A stretch of DNA of 64,000 bases from Alphaproteobacteria bacterium (GTDB lineage: Bacteria > Pseudomonadota > Alphaproteobacteria > Rhodospirillales > Casp-alpha2). Shown here piece after piece: positions 38,834 through 45,586 of this stretch (position 1 is its first letter; every line of letters starts with the position of its first letter). The position numbers were made by a program, and so were the translations under genes. The notes below the pieces were generated by a model. The model was not told the origin of the DNA. It made no database searches and was given only the letters and a program-made list of their open reading frames with translations. The stretch is from the NCBI GenBank assembly GCA_014382345.1, contig JACNJX010000085.1, positions 62,001-126,000 on the forward strand, given 5' to 3'.

Positions 38834-39766
38834 TTAGTCGAACAGGCTGGAAACGGACGTTTCCTCACTGATCCGGTTGATCGCCTCCGCGATCAGCGGC
38901 GCGATGGTTAATTGCTCGATATTGTGGGACACGCGGACCGCTTCGGTACCCTGGATGGAATCCGTAATCACCAGTTTTTCCAACGGTGAAGACGACACCC
39001 GGGCGACCGCGCCGCCGGACAAAACGCCGTGCGTCACATAGGCATGCACCGATGTCGCACCCTGTTCCATCAGGGCCTCGGCGGCGTTGCACAGGGTGCC
39101 CGCCGAATCGACGATATCATCGACCAGGATACAGCAGCGGTCCTTGACGTCGCCGATAATGTTCATGACTTCCGACACACCGGCTTTTTCACGGCGTTTG
39201 TCGATGATGGCGAGGTCCCCGTTGACCCGCTTGGCAAGTCCCCTGGCGCGCAGCACGCCGCCCACGTCGGGCGATACGATGACCAGATCGTCGCCGTTCA
39301 ACTTGTCCTGGATGTCCTTGACCAGCACCGGAGCGGCATAAAGATTATCCGTCGGGATATCGAAAAAGCCCTGAATTTGGCCCGCGTGCAGGTCCATGGT
39401 CAGCACCCGGTCGGCGCCGGCTTCGGTAATCAGGTTGGCGACCAGTTTCGCCGAAATCGGCGTCCGGGGGCCGGATTTGCGGTCCTGGCGGGCATATCCG
39501 AAGTACGGGATGACCGCCGTGATCCGCCGGGCCGAGCCACGCCGAAGCGCATCCAGCGCCACCAGAAGCTCCATCAGGTTGTCATTGGCTGGATAGGACG
39601 TCGACTGGATAAAGAAAACATCCTCGCCGCGGACGTTTTCCTCGATCTCGACAAACACTTCCATATCCGAAAAACGCCGGATACTGGCTCTGGTCAAAGG
39701 CAGGTTGATGCAGGCGGATATCGCCTCGGCCAGGGGCCGATTACTGTTGCCGGCAAGAATTTTCAT
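38834..39766 (-). CDS. prs: ribose-phosphate pyrophosphokinase
   Basis: A 310 aa enzyme making PRPP from ribose-5-phosphate and ATP, for nucleotide, His and Trp synthesis. The catalytic flexible loop has [11 protein letters not shown], the divalent-cation and ribose-binding elements are [16 protein letters not shown] and DVGGVLRA, and the PRPP loop is [22 protein letters not shown]. Length and start ([10 protein letters not shown]) are normal. It has its own promoter in the 190-base gap before it. Confidence 0.97.
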
Positions 39767-39805
39767 GATGTCCCGATTGCTCCGTCGAGGATTTGGAGGC
39801 GGCGA

Positions 39806-39834
39806 AATCTATCAGCCCCCCGGCCCCCTGTAAA
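39806..39834 (-). promoter_or_regulatory. promoter of prs
   Basis: On the minus strand TTTACA (complement of 39829-39834) and TAGATT (complement of 39806-39811) are 17 bases apart. Transcription would start about 35 bases before the prs ATG. Just upstream is a perfect hairpin GGGAAC-GGC-GTTCCC (39849-39863) that could be an operator or an end structure for the lipoprotein transcript. Confidence 0.5.
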
Positions 39835-39958
39835 TGTGAATCCATCGCGGGAACGGCGTTCCCACTCCCCCGTTATTAAATGCGTCTTTAAAACACTCCG
39901 GTCTTTGACCCGTTTCCTCTGTTTCCTCTCTCCGAAGGCGCTGCGTCATAGTGGTGCC

Positions 39959-41437
39959 TCAGGGCGGTGGAAGGGCGCGCCCCGGCACCCGTGGCATGTC
40001 CGCGCGTCCGGTGAACTTGATTTTGCGGCTTCTGGACGTTTGTTTGCGCTCGATCCCGAACAGTTCCTGAATGCCGGCGATGGCGGCGAGAGAAACGATG
40101 TCCGCCACCCGCCCCCAGGTTCCGTTGAGGCTTCCTGCCTTGATCGCGTTTTCCTGCACCGCCTTGCCCACTTCGTCACCATCCACGGTATTGACCGCCC
40201 ACACGATCCGGGCCTGCTGGTGGCCATTGATGGCGGCGCTGAGTTCAACATTGCCTTCGATCACGAAACCGGCCTGACGGGGGTCTTCCGTCACCGTCAG
40301 GTCGCTTTTGCGCATCGCCGTTTTCATGGAGCTAAGCAGCGCCGTATTGCCGTCGCCCGGCGCGCCGCGAACAACTTTGACCAGGAACGAGGGCCTTTTC
40401 CAGCCGACCGGCGGCGGGTTGGGAACAATAGCGCTCGGCCCCTCTTGCGGGACCGGCATCAGGATGGATTTGTCCTTGCGCCGGATTTTGTTTTTCGGCG
40501 GCGCCTTCTCCCGGTCTTCCGGCACCTTCATCAGCACACGGGGGCGACCGACATTTTTCACACTTTTCTTTACGGATTCAGAACTGGACTTAACCGTCGG
40601 GCCTGCCTTGCGCCGCGTCTCTTTTCTAAACACCCCGGAAACCTTGTCGGTCAGGACCGCCACCGCTTGTTGGTCGGTGGGGCCTTTGATTCGAGCCCGA
40701 ATCACAGGACGGATCACGGTTTGGGGCCGGGGCGCGGCAACCAAATTCGTAACCCGCGCCGCAACAGGTTCGCGCACGCCTGCCGGGGCCGCGGAATCGC
40801 GGATCGCAGCTTCCCTGAGAGCCGCCTGCCGCACAGCCTGTTCCCTGGCCGCTGTGTCCGTCACGACCGGTTTCATACCCACCGGCATGGCCATGGGGCT
40901 GACATAGTTCTGTACCATCTCGGCGACACGCGGACCGGCGTCGAAGACCAGAAGGTTGATCGCCTCCGCTGAACCGGTTCGCCACAGATTGGCATCGACG
41001 ACGATTTGCTGGCGGTATTCGGCCACCACTGTCCCGTAGGGCGCGCGCAATTCCCAAACCGCCGTCGCCCAGATGACGGAGCCGCGTTGCTGGGCTTCGT
41101 CGATACGCCCGACGATACTCGGACCCATTTCATTGATTTTTTCCGCCAGCACCGCCGGTTTCCCCACATCGCGGAGAGATGCCACCACGGCGTCGGCGAG
41201 AACCAGGGGGGCTGGTCCACCGGCGCCTTTCACCGGAACGACGAAAATCAGATTGGAGGAATCCACGGACGCCTTGAACCCATCGTCCTGGGCTGCTTCC
41301 ACCGCCGCCGTTTCCGGTGCAGCGGCTGGAGTCTGCGCTCCCCCCAGGCCGACAAGATTTGTCAGGCTGGACTGACAACCGCTAAGGCCCGTGAGGGCAA
41401 ACAAGACAATGGTTAATGTGCGAAGAATGCGCTGCAT
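39959..41437 (-). CDS. large outer lipoprotein, paralogue of the next lipoprotein
   Basis: A 492 aa lipoprotein: signal sequence ILRTLTIVLFALTGLSGC with a lipobox ending at C21. An N-terminal globular domain follows (FVVPVKGAGGPAPLVLADAVVASLRDVGKPAVL to MVQNYV), then a long low-complexity, Arg/Lys/Pro-rich linker (about residues 210-340). A C-terminal domain (FLVKVVRGAPGDGNTALLSSMKTAMRKSDL through IAGIQELFGI) completes it. Both globular domains recur in the adjacent lipoprotein (41753-42781). No known family is recognised. It lies between pgeF and prs, with a 315-base gap upstream. It might bind envelope components, but function is unknown. Confidence 0.75.
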   Translation of the reverse strand: MQRILRTLTIVLFALTGLSGCQSSLTNLVGLGGAQTPAAAPETAAVEAAQDDGFKASVDSSNLIFVVPVKGAGGPAPLVLADAVVASLRDVGKPAVLAEKINEMGPSIVGRIDEAQQRGSVIWATAVWELRAPYGTVVAEYRQQIVVDANLWRTGSAEAINLLVFDAGPRVAEMVQNYVSPMAMPVGMKPVVTDTAAREQAVRQAALREAAIRDSAAPAGVREPVAARVTNLVAAPRPQTVIRPVIRARIKGPTDQQAVAVLTDKVSGVFRKETRRKAGPTVKSSSESVKKSVKNVGRPRVLMKVPEDREKAPPKNKIRRKDKSILMPVPQEGPSAIVPNPPPVGWKRPSFLVKVVRGAPGDGNTALLSSMKTAMRKSDLTVTEDPRQAGFVIEGNVELSAAINGHQQARIVWAVNTVDGDEVGKAVQENAIKAGSLNGTWGRVADIVSLAAIAGIQELFGIERKQTSRSRKIKFTGRADMPRVPGRALPPP

Positions 41438-41752
41438 TACCTGAACTTCGGAACCCGCCTGAACCAGCCTGAAAAAGAAATCAAAGCCCTTTTCAAGGCC
41501 ATCTCATTTGTAAAACCCCGGCGCCCAGAACGCCTTTTCCAACAACCACGGAGACCGCCGCCGCAAAACAAAAGAAGACGACGGACCGCGAATCGCTCTG
41601 CCCACTTAAATCTACCAAATATGGGGGGTCTTTTCACCGGAAAGGAAGAATCCCACCATCCCTAGCAGAAGCAGCCGCCTTTACCAAGGCCTCAGAGAGG
41701 CCGTGGTAAAGGCCTGCGCACGTCTTGCTAAATTGTCCTTAACTATTTGGAA
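41438..41752. other. 315-base gap between the two lipoprotein genes with a strong hairpin
   Basis: No convincing gene is present. The main feature is an almost perfect inverted repeat: 41678-41693 pairs with 41697-41712 (15 of 16 pairs, one A-G mismatch, 3-base loop). No T-run follows on either strand, so it is not a classic terminator. A 66-codon Arg-rich frame at 41437-41637 on the minus strand ends in TAATG with the lipoprotein start, but has no features of a real protein. Confidence 0.5.
41678..41712. repeat. near-perfect inverted repeat (stem-loop)
   Basis: CCTTTACCAAGGCCTC pairs with GAGGCCGTGGTAAAGG around a loop of AGA. In the minus-strand transcript it lies about 40 bases past the stop of the upstream lipoprotein gene, so it may stabilise or end that message. 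Confidence 0.6.
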
Positions 41753-42781
41753 TCAAGGAGTTTTCTTAAGGCGTTGCAGGCCTTCAAGTTCAAGGCTTGG
41801 GGGCGGCAGGGTGAGCTTCTTTTTGGACAGGGGAATCTCCGTATTCAATACCCGTTCCGGCGGGCCCAAGCGGGCCGGGGATGTGCCCGCCGCCCGTAAA
41901 ATGCCCTGGATTCCCTCTAGTGCGGCTTCGGCGACAATCACCGCGACCTCCCCCCAGGCGGCGGCGAAGGTTCCCGCCCGGACCAGGTTCTTCTGCGTCG
42001 CCTTGCCGATTTCGCGGTCGTCCGTCGTCGATACGGTCCAGACGATCTCCACCCGTTGCAGGTTGTCGTTGTCGGGCGGCCCGACATTGACAACCGTATC
42101 CAGAACGAATTCGGCGTACCGTTTGTCCCGGGCGACGATAAGCCCGGCCCCTTTTATGACGGCTTTGATCGCGCGCTTCAGGGATTGGTTTCCGTCGCCG
42201 GGGGCGTTTTTCACGGTGTTGATCCAGACGCCCGCAAGTTTCGGCTTCACCGGGTCGCGCTTCGCTTCCCTGTTTTTTTCATCCTCGCCGATTAGGGCGG
42301 AAATGATTTCGGGCGCGTTTTCGCCGACGTCCGCGATCACGTCGGCCGATCCGAAATCCCAATCCCGGCGGCTGCCATGCACACCCTCCACCTCGACGCC
42401 TATAGGTTTGCCGTCATAATCGAACAAGGTCCAGGTTATCAGCACCACGTAGGGCAGATCGGGATTGTCCTTGTTCAGCGACGCCTCGCCCTTGAGCGTA
42501 TAGCGGCTGTTGGCGCGCGGGTTGGTGGTGGCGTGGATGCCGCGCTTTTGGAAACCTTCGGCGACGGCGTCGGTCAACAACTTCGACATCGGCCTGGATA
42601 CGCCATTGATCGACTGCACCAGGATTCCTCTGGCCGCCGCTTCTGTGACAAGCGGGTTGGCGGGGGCCTCGGGCGCAGGCTTGAACGGCCGCGGCAGAGG
42701 CCCGCAGGACACGGCAAGGACCTGAAGCAGGACCAAAGCCAGAATCTGGGCCAGAGCCGTAATTGGGAAGCGGCGCCTCAT
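41753..42781 (-). CDS. lipoprotein, paralogue of the adjacent large lipoprotein
   Basis: A 342 aa lipoprotein: signal FPITALAQILALVLLQVLAVSC with a lipobox Cys (VLAVSC). The first domain (ILVQSINGVSRPMSKLLTDAVAEGF to ENAPEIISALI) is like the N-terminal domain of the neighbour. The second domain (VWINTVKNAPGDGNQSLKRAIKAVIKGAGLIV, VEIVWTVSTTDDREIGKATQKNLVRAGTFAAAWGEVAVIVAEAALEGI) aligns with the neighbour's APGDGN ... GIQELFG domain. It lacks the long linker. The ATG at 42781 overlaps the stop of a 22-codon frame (ATGA). Function unknown; the pair looks like a tandem duplication that diverged. Confidence 0.75.
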   Translation of the reverse strand: MRRRFPITALAQILALVLLQVLAVSCGPLPRPFKPAPEAPANPLVTEAAARGILVQSINGVSRPMSKLLTDAVAEGFQKRGIHATTNPRANSRYTLKGEASLNKDNPDLPYVVLITWTLFDYDGKPIGVEVEGVHGSRRDWDFGSADVIADVGENAPEIISALIGEDEKNREAKRDPVKPKLAGVWINTVKNAPGDGNQSLKRAIKAVIKGAGLIVARDKRYAEFVLDTVVNVGPPDNDNLQRVEIVWTVSTTDDREIGKATQKNLVRAGTFAAAWGEVAVIVAEAALEGIQGILRAAGTSPARLGPPERVLNTEIPLSKKKLTLPPPSLELEGLQRLKKTP

Positions 42782-42846
42782 GTCACTGCGCAGGCGACCA
42801 TAAAGGCCAGGATCAGGGCGGCCGTGATGATGAACATATGCGGCAT
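42778..42846 (-). CDS. 22-residue hydrophobic microprotein, coupled to the lipoprotein
   Basis: An ATG at 42846, six bases past the pgeF stop, opens a 22-codon frame whose TGA overlaps the lipoprotein ATG (ATGA). The peptide starts MPHMFIITAALIL and ends FMVACAVT, a single membrane-spanning segment with a VAC sequence near the end that is reminiscent of a lipobox but does not match it well. It resembles entericidin-like small envelope peptides only in general character. The exact fit between pgeF and the lipoprotein and the ATGA overlap argue that it is translated. It could instead be only a coupling leader. Confidence 0.4.
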   Translation of the reverse strand: MPHMFIITAALILAFMVACAVT

Positions 42847-42852
42847 GGCCCG

Positions 42853-43650
42853 TTACCCGTCCGCCAGCAGGATCGCCGACAGCCCCCGGCCATAGTCCTG
42901 CTCGCCGCGATGGGTGGCGCGCCGGTAGCTGAAAAAACGATGTTCGTCGGCGCAGGTATCTCCGGCACAGGTCTCGAAGGCTATGCCGAGAACGTCCAGC
43001 TTCCGGCCTATATACCCCGGCAAATCGAACAGGAAATGCCCGTCCCGTGTCGAGGGCCGAAAGAATCTCCCGTTGGCCGGGTCGGCGTCGGCGAAACGCA
43101 CCCGGAACTCCGGCCCGACTTCGTAAGAATCCTGGCGGATGCACGGACCGATGGCCGCCCGGATGCGTGACGGCTCCGCGCCAAGGCTCCTCATCGCTTC
43201 AACCGTGGCTTCGGTAATGCCGCCCAACGCGCCTTTCCAGCCGGCATGGGCGGCCCCGATCACGCCCTTTCCGGAATTGGCCTGCGTATCTGCGAACAGC
43301 ACCGGGACGCAATCTGCGGTCAGGATTCCCAGCGCCACGCCGGGCCTGTTGGTCACGGCGGCGTCGGCTTTTGGCGCGTCGCCCGGGTCCCAAGGCTCCT
43401 CGACGACGGCGACATCCGGCGAATGGACCTGATAGAGCGTCACCAAATTCACCGCGCGCCCGACCTCACCTGCATCCTCGACAAGGCGGGTCATCGCGCG
43501 GGTCCGGTTGGCCGCGACATGGTCGGGGTTGTCGCCGGATCCGAAGCCGCAATTCAGCGAACCGAAAAGCCCCTGGCTGACGCCGCCCGCACGAGTGAAG
43601 AAGGCGTGCCGAACACGGCCGGATTGGTTTAGGGATTGTGCGGTAATCAT
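42853..43650 (-). CDS. pgeF: peptidoglycan editing factor / polyphenol oxidase PgeF (YfiH family)
   Basis: A 265 aa YfiH-family protein. In E. coli this family hydrolyses misincorporated L-Ser from peptidoglycan precursors, and relatives show adenosine-processing or laccase-like activity. Marks are RHAFFTRAGGVSQGLFGSLN, YQVHSPDVAVV with the first His, ALGILTADCVPVLFAD with the Cys, and GAAHAGWKGALGGI with the second His. Length is normal. The midA gene lies upstream on the same strand (29 bases away). Confidence 0.92.
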   Translation of the reverse strand: MITAQSLNQSGRVRHAFFTRAGGVSQGLFGSLNCGFGSGDNPDHVAANRTRAMTRLVEDAGEVGRAVNLVTLYQVHSPDVAVVEEPWDPGDAPKADAAVTNRPGVALGILTADCVPVLFADTQANSGKGVIGAAHAGWKGALGGITEATVEAMRSLGAEPSRIRAAIGPCIRQDSYEVGPEFRVRFADADPANGRFFRPSTRDGHFLFDLPGYIGRKLDVLGIAFETCAGDTCADEHRFFSYRRATHRGEQDYGRGLSAILLADG

Positions 43651-43679
43651 GAGCTTTAATGTACCAGCCGGAAGCGGAT

Positions 43680-44786
43680 TTATTCAAATCCGGGCGGCAC
43701 CGGCAGGCCGGGACTGGTCAGGGCCACGACCTTGAACAAATGCCCCATGCCCTCATCCGACGTCAGCCGCGTCAAAGCCTCGGCAATTTCCTGGGCGTGT
43801 GCTGGCGAGGCCCCGGCCAGAGCCTCGGCGCGGGCCTGAATGCTGAGTCCGGCCAGGAACCGGCCCTGGGTGACGGGACCGTACACCACGGCGCCCGCGT
43901 CGGCGGCCTCTTCACTCAGCGCCCCGAAATCCACATGCGCCGTCAGGTCGGCGGTGCCCGGCTGCGACAGGGGTTCGTGATAGGCGTGATCCTTGACCGC
44001 CTGCAGGGTTTCGCCGCAGGCCGTGCGCTCGTGGCCGTAATCGATAAACAGCACGCAACCGGGGTGTCTGTTCAGGCGTGCCGCCATGCCCTGGACCAGC
44101 GCCTTGGCCGCAGGGCGGGTTTCGATGATGTCGCCGGGCGACGCGGCCAGGTCCGGCGGCACGGCGCCGTCCTGGGTGGCCGCGTCGGACAGGGTGAATT
44201 GAAAACCGTTTTCGGATACGTCTACCAGACGCTCGCGCCAACCGTCGTCCGTCATTTGATACTGGTGGATCGGCAAGGCGTCCAGGAACTCGTTGCCGAT
44301 AGCGGCAAACGGGCCTTCGGGAACCTCGGAAAAGTCGCTGATCCAGCGCAACGCCTGGGCCCGGCGCAGTTCATCCCCAGTCCTGGCCAGCAGAGTTTCC
44401 TCCTGCACGCCCTTGAGCGCCGGGCTGATTTCCACCAGCGACAGGGACAGGGATTCGAGAAACCCCTCCACGCCCCGCCCGGCGCGCAGCACATCGGACA
44501 TCAGGGTGCCGCGACCGGGGCCGAGTTCGACCAGATGGAAGGGGTCCACTTCGCCCATCACCTGCCATTGGATAGCACTCCATAGCCCGATCAGTTCACC
44601 GAACATCTGGCTGATTTCCGGCGCCGTGATGAAGTCGCCGCCGCGTCCGAACGGATCCTGACCCCTGCCCTGTCCCATGTAATAGCCGAGCCGGGGATGG
44701 CCGAGGGCATCGTCCATATACCGGGCAACCGTCAACGGGCCTTCGGCGGCGATACGCTGGCGGAAATGTTCGCTTAAACCCGGCAT
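43680..44786 (-). CDS. class I SAM-dependent methyltransferase, MidA/NDUFAF7 family
   Basis: A 368 aa protein of the MidA/NDUFAF7 (DUF185) family. Mitochondrial NDUFAF7 dimethylates an arginine of complex I subunit NDUFS2 during assembly, so a role in complex I assembly is plausible. Seen: IAAEGPLTVARYMDDALGHPRLGYYM, GRGGDFITAPEISQMFGELIGLW, the SAM-binding LVELGPGRGTLMSDVLRA, and GNEFLDALPIHQY. The start is the ATG at 44786 (MPGLSEHFRQ), 5 bases after the lgt stop. The longer frame upstream reads across lgt and is spurious. Confidence 0.9.
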   Translation of the reverse strand: MPGLSEHFRQRIAAEGPLTVARYMDDALGHPRLGYYMGQGRGQDPFGRGGDFITAPEISQMFGELIGLWSAIQWQVMGEVDPFHLVELGPGRGTLMSDVLRAGRGVEGFLESLSLSLVEISPALKGVQEETLLARTGDELRRAQALRWISDFSEVPEGPFAAIGNEFLDALPIHQYQMTDDGWRERLVDVSENGFQFTLSDAATQDGAVPPDLAASPGDIIETRPAAKALVQGMAARLNRHPGCVLFIDYGHERTACGETLQAVKDHAYHEPLSQPGTADLTAHVDFGALSEEAADAGAVVYGPVTQGRFLAGLSIQARAEALAGASPAHAQEIAEALTRLTSDEGMGHLFKVVALTSPGLPVPPGFE

Positions 44787-44791
44787 GCTTT

Positions 44792-45586
44792 TCAGGCTTT
44801 CCGGTGCGGGCGCAGCATCAACCACAGCCCGGCCATGATCAACGGCGCGGACAGCCACTGTCCGGTGGTGGAACCGAAGCTCAGGAATCCGATGTGCGCG
44901 TCCGGCTGCCGGAAAACCTCGACGACCGTTCGCGCGCCGCCGTAGCCGGCAAGGAATACACCGGTGAGAAACCCTGGTCGGCGGCGCAACGCCTCGTTTC
45001 GCGACAACCACATCAAGACCGCGAACAGCATCACGCCTTCCAGGCAGGCCTCATAAATCTGGCTCGGATGGCGGGGCTCGGAGCCGCCACGGGGAAAGAT
45101 TACACCCCACGGGGCATCGGTGACGCGGCCGAACAGTTCCCCGTTGATGAAATTGGCGAGCCGCCCGAAGAACAGTCCGATAGGCGAAACGCAGGCAACC
45201 CGGTCGGCAAACAGCCAGAGATCTATTCCCCGCCTGCGGCAGAAAATAATGGTGGCGACGATAACGCCCAGCAACCCGCCGTGGAACGACATGCCGCCCT
45301 GCCAGAGCGCGAACACGGCCAGCGGATTTTCGAGATAGGCCCCCAGGTTATAGAACAGCACGTAGCCCACACGCCCGCCCAGGATCACCCCCAAAGTCGC
45401 CCAGACCAGATAATCATCAGCCTCTTCCAGGCTTGCCACCTCGGGCGTTCGCCGCACCATACGGCGCAATACCTGCCAGCCCAGCAACAGGCCGCCGATA
45501 TAGGCCAGCGAATACCAGCGGATGGCCAAAGGCCCGAAACTGATAATCACCGGGTCGATGGCTGGAAAAGGAATGGCGAAGATCAT
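44792..45586 (-). CDS. lgt: prolipoprotein diacylglyceryl transferase
   Basis: A 264 aa inner-membrane enzyme that transfers diacylglyceryl from phosphatidylglycerol to the lipobox Cys of prolipoproteins. Conserved parts are GGMSFHGGLLGVIVA with the essential His-Gly-Gly, the Lgt signature GLFFGRLANFINGELFGRVTD, and PRHPSQIYEACLEG. Seven hydrophobic segments are seen. Followed closely by midA. It can act on the two lipoproteins encoded a few genes downstream. Confidence 0.96.
   Translation of the reverse strand: MIFAIPFPAIDPVIISFGPLAIRWYSLAYIGGLLLGWQVLRRMVRRTPEVASLEEADDYLVWATLGVILGGRVGYVLFYNLGAYLENPLAVFALWQGGMSFHGGLLGVIVATIIFCRRRGIDLWLFADRVACVSPIGLFFGRLANFINGELFGRVTDAPWGVIFPRGGSEPRHPSQIYEACLEGVMLFAVLMWLSRNEALRRRPGFLTGVFLAGYGGARTVVEVFRQPDAHIGFLSFGSTTGQWLSAPLIMAGLWLMLRPHRKA

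Follow-up and report, generated by a model that had tools for sequence, protein, structure and literature searches.

A conserved 22-codon frame next to lipoprotein genes is probably a membrane microprotein gene of Alphaproteobacteria

Gene order around the lipoprotein genes

The window, by which we mean the entire 64,000-nucleotide stretch of DNA analysed here, belongs to an assembly of 3.07 Mb and carries on its minus strand, in this order, lgt, midA, pgeF, a 22-codon frame, lipB, lipA, prs, rplY, pth and ychF. The gene directly upstream of the 22-codon frame, pgeF (42853–43650, minus strand), encodes a peptidoglycan editing factor according to its family match, and a PF02636 match marks the next gene (43680–44786, minus strand) as a midA-type SAM-dependent methyltransferase. 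The other genes are named from their sequences: we take 44792–45586 (minus strand) to be lgt, for prolipoprotein diacylglyceryl transferase, and 38834–39766 (minus strand), the downstream border of the conserved cluster, to be prs, for ribose-phosphate pyrophosphokinase; rplY, pth and ychF were presumed likewise, and these genes then served as tblastn references. Across 40 loci from 39 related genomes, most of the contigs that are long enough keep the order lgt-midA-pgeF-lipB-prs-rplY-pth-ychF; the exceptions include two loci in which lipB stands without adjoining lgt, midA and pgeF (L050, L068) and one from which prs is absent (L062).

The arrangement lgt-midA-pgeF-22-codon frame-lipB-prs is likewise conserved across related genomes. 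The first-pass annotation had put lgt next to the lipoprotein genes, and this must be amended, as midA and pgeF separate lgt (45586–44792) from the small frame. Lgt modifies every lipoprotein of a cell, so its neighbourhood carries little functional information. At one locus an M24-family peptidase gene (L042:4156-5304, PF00557) lies between pgeF and the small frame; M24-like frames separate the two in related genomes as well, and the small frame then stays beside lipB.

Two paralogous lipoproteins

The gene lipB (41753–42781, minus strand) encodes 342 residues with the lipobox LAVSC, Cys26 and a mature sequence beginning CGPLPRPF, and lipA (39959–41437, minus strand) encodes 492 residues with the lipobox LSGC and Cys21; a signal peptide with a lipobox cysteine can be read in both. 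Their C-terminal domains are 39% identical over 119 residues, and BLAST gives no significant match between their N-terminal domains. Profile comparison with hhalign relates the N-terminal domains to each other (97.8%, E 9.5e-13), finds the C-terminal domains to be the closest pair (100%, E 2e-46), identifies the N- and C-terminal domains of LipB as related copies (98.5%, E 3.8e-15) and matches those of LipA weakly (58.9%, E 9.3e-5). Judged by these profiles, LipA and LipB are paralogous and each carries two domains of one kind in tandem, which refines the earlier description of N- and C-terminal domains common to both proteins; the long basic linker described with them joins the two domains of LipA.

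That the lipoproteins belong to no recognised family stands at the level of sequence, where neither has a family match above its cut-off, and falls at the level of structure, where Foldseek and VIA recognise the fold of LipB. An AlphaFold model of mature LipB built on 58 sequences (pLDDT 84.4) has two beta-alpha-beta-beta-beta-alpha domains, the arrangement of which is uncertain because the pTM is 0.49, and both searches return matches for both domains, which are predicted to have the TolB-N/LptE/PelC/CsgG fold. In Pfam, TraT (PF05818) matches LipB over residues 176–241 only, with 18.3 bits against a cut-off of 31 (E 0.0022). LptE (PF04390) gives no match at E ≤ 1 with the LipB of the window, and one of 30 homologs matches it at E 0.0037. 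We considered and rejected LipB as the LptE of this genome, because another protein, encoded on contig C95, passes the LptE cut-off.

The nearest named LipB, at 67% identity, comes from a Rhodospirillales metagenome bin, and a search for lipB on plasmids returned no match. The family to which the window belongs (f1) has second genes resembling lipA, as does one locus of another family (L071). In two genomes lipB encodes a single protein of 561–562 residues with an extra domain of the C-terminal type (L059:5784-7469, L060:6051-7733); its two C-domain matches lie in one frame, as if the domain of LipA had been joined to LipB. The fold and the lipobox are what suggest that LipB and LipA are probably outer-membrane lipoproteins, each made of two domains of the TolB-N/LptE/PelC type, acting as periplasmic scaffolds. 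A conserved lipoprotein family of the class, previously without a name, gains a predicted fold in this way.

A lineage-specific hairpin between lipB and lipA

The strong stem-loop noted earlier between the two lipoprotein genes is indeed present, as an inverted repeat at 41677–41713 whose 17-nt arms (41677–41693 and 41697–41713) form 16 of 17 pairs (94%) around a 3-nt loop. Its folding energy is −33.6 kcal/mol, and none of 200 shuffled sequences is as stable (z −6.4). It was rejected as an intrinsic terminator, having no T run or T tail and no call in the terminator scan, and as a repeat element, since the genome holds a single full copy and the other three matches are pieces of 17–23 nt. The nearest relative has a broken stem at the same offset, and across 17 sequences, the window included, only unrelated stems are otherwise found. 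Rfam has no family at 39500–43700, and with the unbroken stem not kept in the relatives examined, the hairpin was set aside as a conserved RNA as well. It is lineage-specific, and may influence the stability or processing of the mRNA between lipB and lipA.

Conservation of the 22-codon frame

The 22-codon frame (42778–42846, minus strand) encodes MPHMFIITAALILAFMVACAVT, with Pro2, an aromatic residue or histidine at position 3, small residues at positions 14 and 18, and Cys19. It begins 6 nt past the pgeF stop and its end shares an ATGA with the start of lipB, just as the first-pass annotation had it for this hydrophobic frame (42846–42778). That annotation had named lack of conservation as grounds for giving the frame up; the frame proves to be conserved. 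A first scan of the 40 relatives' loci, which looked for short hydrophobic frames starting MP, applied a hydrophobicity filter only and did not require a cysteine, finds the frame upstream of lipB at 35 of them. It was not found at the other five (L041, L064, L069, L070, L071), two of which, L041 and L071, do not include the start of lipB. Exactly 22 residues are encoded by 28 of the 35 frames, and Cys19 is present in 34, with tyrosine in its place in L061.

A search of named genomes with the single lipB sequence gave no match, and a search with a lipB alignment succeeded; its best 80 of 464 matches make up our named set. An N-terminal LipB match is present at 78 of these 80 loci and the frame at 70, by a scan that required Cys at positions 17–20 and no Lys or Arg in residues 1–19; scanning these loci without the cysteine requirement recovers them as well. 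The two sets overlap, and the named one contains clusters of close relatives, so its 70 frames are not independent cases. Their usual form starts MP[Y/H] and has 22 residues (50 of 70, range 21–26); position 3 is Tyr in 45, His in 23, and Phe and Trp in one each, position 18 is Thr in 43, Ser in 19 and Ala in 3, and Cys19 is present in all 70. Counting that of the window, there are 60 distinct sequences of 22 residues.

At two loci the microprotein is four residues longer, with the cysteine at position 23 (L205, L209; genomes G309, G233), one has the peptide without the usual start codon (L115), and one has the frame cut by a contig end (L117). Four records titled Mesoflavibacter sp. or Asaia bogorensis (L122, L114, L131, L146) bear an alphaproteobacterial lipB locus, and these bin names may be wrong for those metagenome records.

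No Pfam or NCBIfam family covers the microprotein; its best NCBIfam match is CbdX, with 2 of 50 members and a best E of 0.0075. Among the titles and abstract beginnings of open-access papers listed by our searches, none describes the microprotein or the locus, and six exact start motifs matched no paper there.

Distribution and independence from lipB

A profile of the microprotein (A3) matches 88 of 289 alphaproteobacterial genomes with 89 hits at E ≤ 0.0124, leaving 201 genomes of the class without a match at that threshold, so that the family is patchy. Among 397 genomes drawn from the whole phylum it matches 13 at E ≤ 0.1, 11 of them within the class; the two matches outside are both partial (E 0.031 and 0.051). 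In a second such draw, of 367 genomes, the lipB profile (A4) matches 24, every one of them from the class. The two genes are linked: 65 of the 89 microprotein hits lie on the same strand within 700 nt upstream of lipB, and the microprotein is matched in 67 of 107 genomes with lipB versus 21 of the 182 in which the lipB profile finds nothing. The remaining 40 of the 107 have no microprotein match at threshold, and in 20 of these below-threshold genomes the DNA upstream of lipB was read, revealing the frame in one (G148) and its absence in 19. Of three further below-threshold lipB genomes, G309 and G233 have the longer forms described above, and a scan saw no frame in G197.

An alternative is that the frame serves as a regulatory leader or a coupling ORF: its translation would control the gene downstream, lipB or prs, through attenuation, arrest or termination-reinitiation, and its peptide would be functionless. 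The ATGA overlap in the window is in keeping with such a leader, as is the end of 58 of the 65 lipB-linked matches no more than 73 nt from the lipB profile match. The gene to be regulated is not always downstream, however. The 21 of 88 microprotein genomes without a lipB match retain the microprotein, which is evidence against a pure lipB leader; the order pgeF-microprotein gene-prs occurs without lipB at ten loci (L168, L169, L215, L216, L219, L220, L221, L223, L224, L226). In family f41, represented by two genera, the microprotein gene lies away from pgeF, lipB and prs, 3–5 nt past the stop of what we take to be gatB, whose strand it shares, and it is the last gene there (L217:3046-3111, plus strand; L218:2987-3052, minus strand). 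The gene that follows, presumably an enoyl-CoA hydratase gene, is convergent at both loci, so that nothing is led there. Conservation, moreover, extends over the full length of the span, where one hydrophobic residue replaces another, and is not concentrated in a C-terminal arrest motif. We therefore rejected the frame as a lipB leader, and a regulatory leader of any of these kinds now seems quite unlikely.

The view of the small frame and lipB as one obligatory unit is likewise not supported, with the 21 of 88 genomes on one side and the 40 of 107 on the other; it had tied the microprotein too closely to lipB, and the microprotein is the most valuable part of the locus. One genome (G066) has two differing copies of its gene on separate contigs (C409 and C454; L229, L182), and one of these may be foreign, given an assembly contamination of 7%.

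Cys19 lies outside a normal lipobox

With an invariant cysteine after a hydrophobic stretch in the named set, Leu, Met or Val at −3, Ala or Val at −2, and lgt within the same cluster, the peptide could be read as a minimal prolipoprotein, in which Lgt lipidates Cys19 and only 3–8 residues stay behind after cleavage, anchored by their lipid. A lipobox has Gly, Ala or Ser before the cysteine, whereas the residue at −1 of Cys19 is Thr in 43, Ser in 19 and Ala in 3 of 70; in the same set of loci the lipobox of lipB has Ala in 62, Gly in 12, Ser in 2 and Thr in none of 76. A positively charged n-region ahead of the span is also missing: no Lys or Arg occurs in residues 1–19, including in the 35 microproteins of the first scan, where charge was not a filter. 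Hydrophobic residues also follow the cysteine, as they would if the helix continued. As far as sequence can tell, Cys19 lacks a normal lipobox, and we regard a minimal prolipoprotein as highly unlikely.

Selection acts on the encoded peptide

For codons 2–19 of the microprotein gene, pN/pS is 0.16 among pairs with at least 90% nucleotide identity and 0.18 among pairs with 80–90%, and the most distant pairs reach 0.59. Four codons are used for Pro2, and both cysteine codons for Cys19. These patterns indicate selection at the protein level. Strict Shine-Dalgarno-like motifs precede 18 of 70 microprotein starts versus 848 of 10641 ATGs of the same loci; the comparison speaks for a gene, the small number of starts with such a motif against one. 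A permutation test showed no conserved face of the helix (p 0.42 and 0.46), which also counts against the reading, and in 16 loci read for a fusion to the upstream gene, as a pointer to a partner, none was seen.

That so short a frame is a chance ORF, or owes its conservation to overlapping DNA or RNA signals, is scarcely credible against this protein-level selection, the fixed register of Met1, Pro2 and Cys19, and the single genome in 289 (a hit inside a 472-residue frame) matched at the same E by a column-permuted decoy of the profile that itself matches 88; the absence of a protein or Rfam family for the frame weighs neither for nor against this reading.

Proposed role of the microprotein

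Conservation, protein-level selection, linkage to its neighbours and independence from lipB lead us to conclude that the 22-codon frame is probably an independent alphaproteobacterial gene, for a microprotein that spans the inner membrane once and is most plausibly an accessory subunit of an inner-membrane protein. The gene would usually be co-transcribed with pgeF and lipB, as gene order suggests, and in the window its ATGA places it for translational coupling to lipB. Once translated, the peptide would lose its start methionine, as expected from proline at position 2; Pro-[Tyr/His] would then lie on one side of the membrane, a stretch of 14 uncharged and mostly hydrophobic residues would span the bilayer, and the small-Cys pair T/S18-C19 would sit near the opposite face. 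In its most likely mode of action the microprotein would pack on a larger inner-membrane protein, stabilising or tuning it, and residues 14, 18 and 19 may form the contact or a reactive site.

A bolder and rather unlikely proposal is that modification of Cys19, by lipidation despite the non-canonical site or by a disulfide at the membrane surface, is the whole function of a class-wide 22-residue membrane peptide. If true, the alphaproteobacterial envelope would contain a minimal thiol or lipopeptide device that stands alone, encoded beside genes for lipoprotein modification and cell-wall editing.

On our preferred reading, an accessory membrane microprotein, this is a new family of a known kind, widespread and below the length at which gene finders usually call genes. 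Its cultured carriers include Roseomonas aerilata DSM 19363, Falsiroseomonas bella and Neoroseomonas lacus, in which the fixed motif and near-invariant residues make it directly testable.

Comparison with known systems

The predicted domains of LipB share their fold class with LptE and are grouped by Foldseek and VIA-align with folds that include TolB-N. They align with PelC (Foldseek E 3.5e-5), with LptE and, among the matches listed, with the DUF330/PqiC protein 2iqi (Z 11.2, rmsd 3.7, 114 aligned), CsgG (Z 10.6, rmsd 3.2, 114 aligned) and TraT (Z 10.3, rmsd 3.2, 111 aligned). LipB differs from TolB-N, PelC, LptE, PqiC, CsgG and TraT in having two tandem copies per protein, and its best sequence match to a solved chain has an E of 2.3.

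CydX, KdpF, AcrZ and MgtS are single-span bacterial membrane microproteins that act as accessory subunits. The microprotein described here resembles them in being very short, with one hydrophobic span, and in being encoded beside larger genes where annotation easily misses it; homology was compared for CbdX alone, and the weak matches of two of 50 microproteins to that family are best read as composition. What sets the new family apart from CydX, KdpF, AcrZ and MgtS is its length of 22 residues, its charge-free span, its near-invariant Cys19 and its MP[YH] start.
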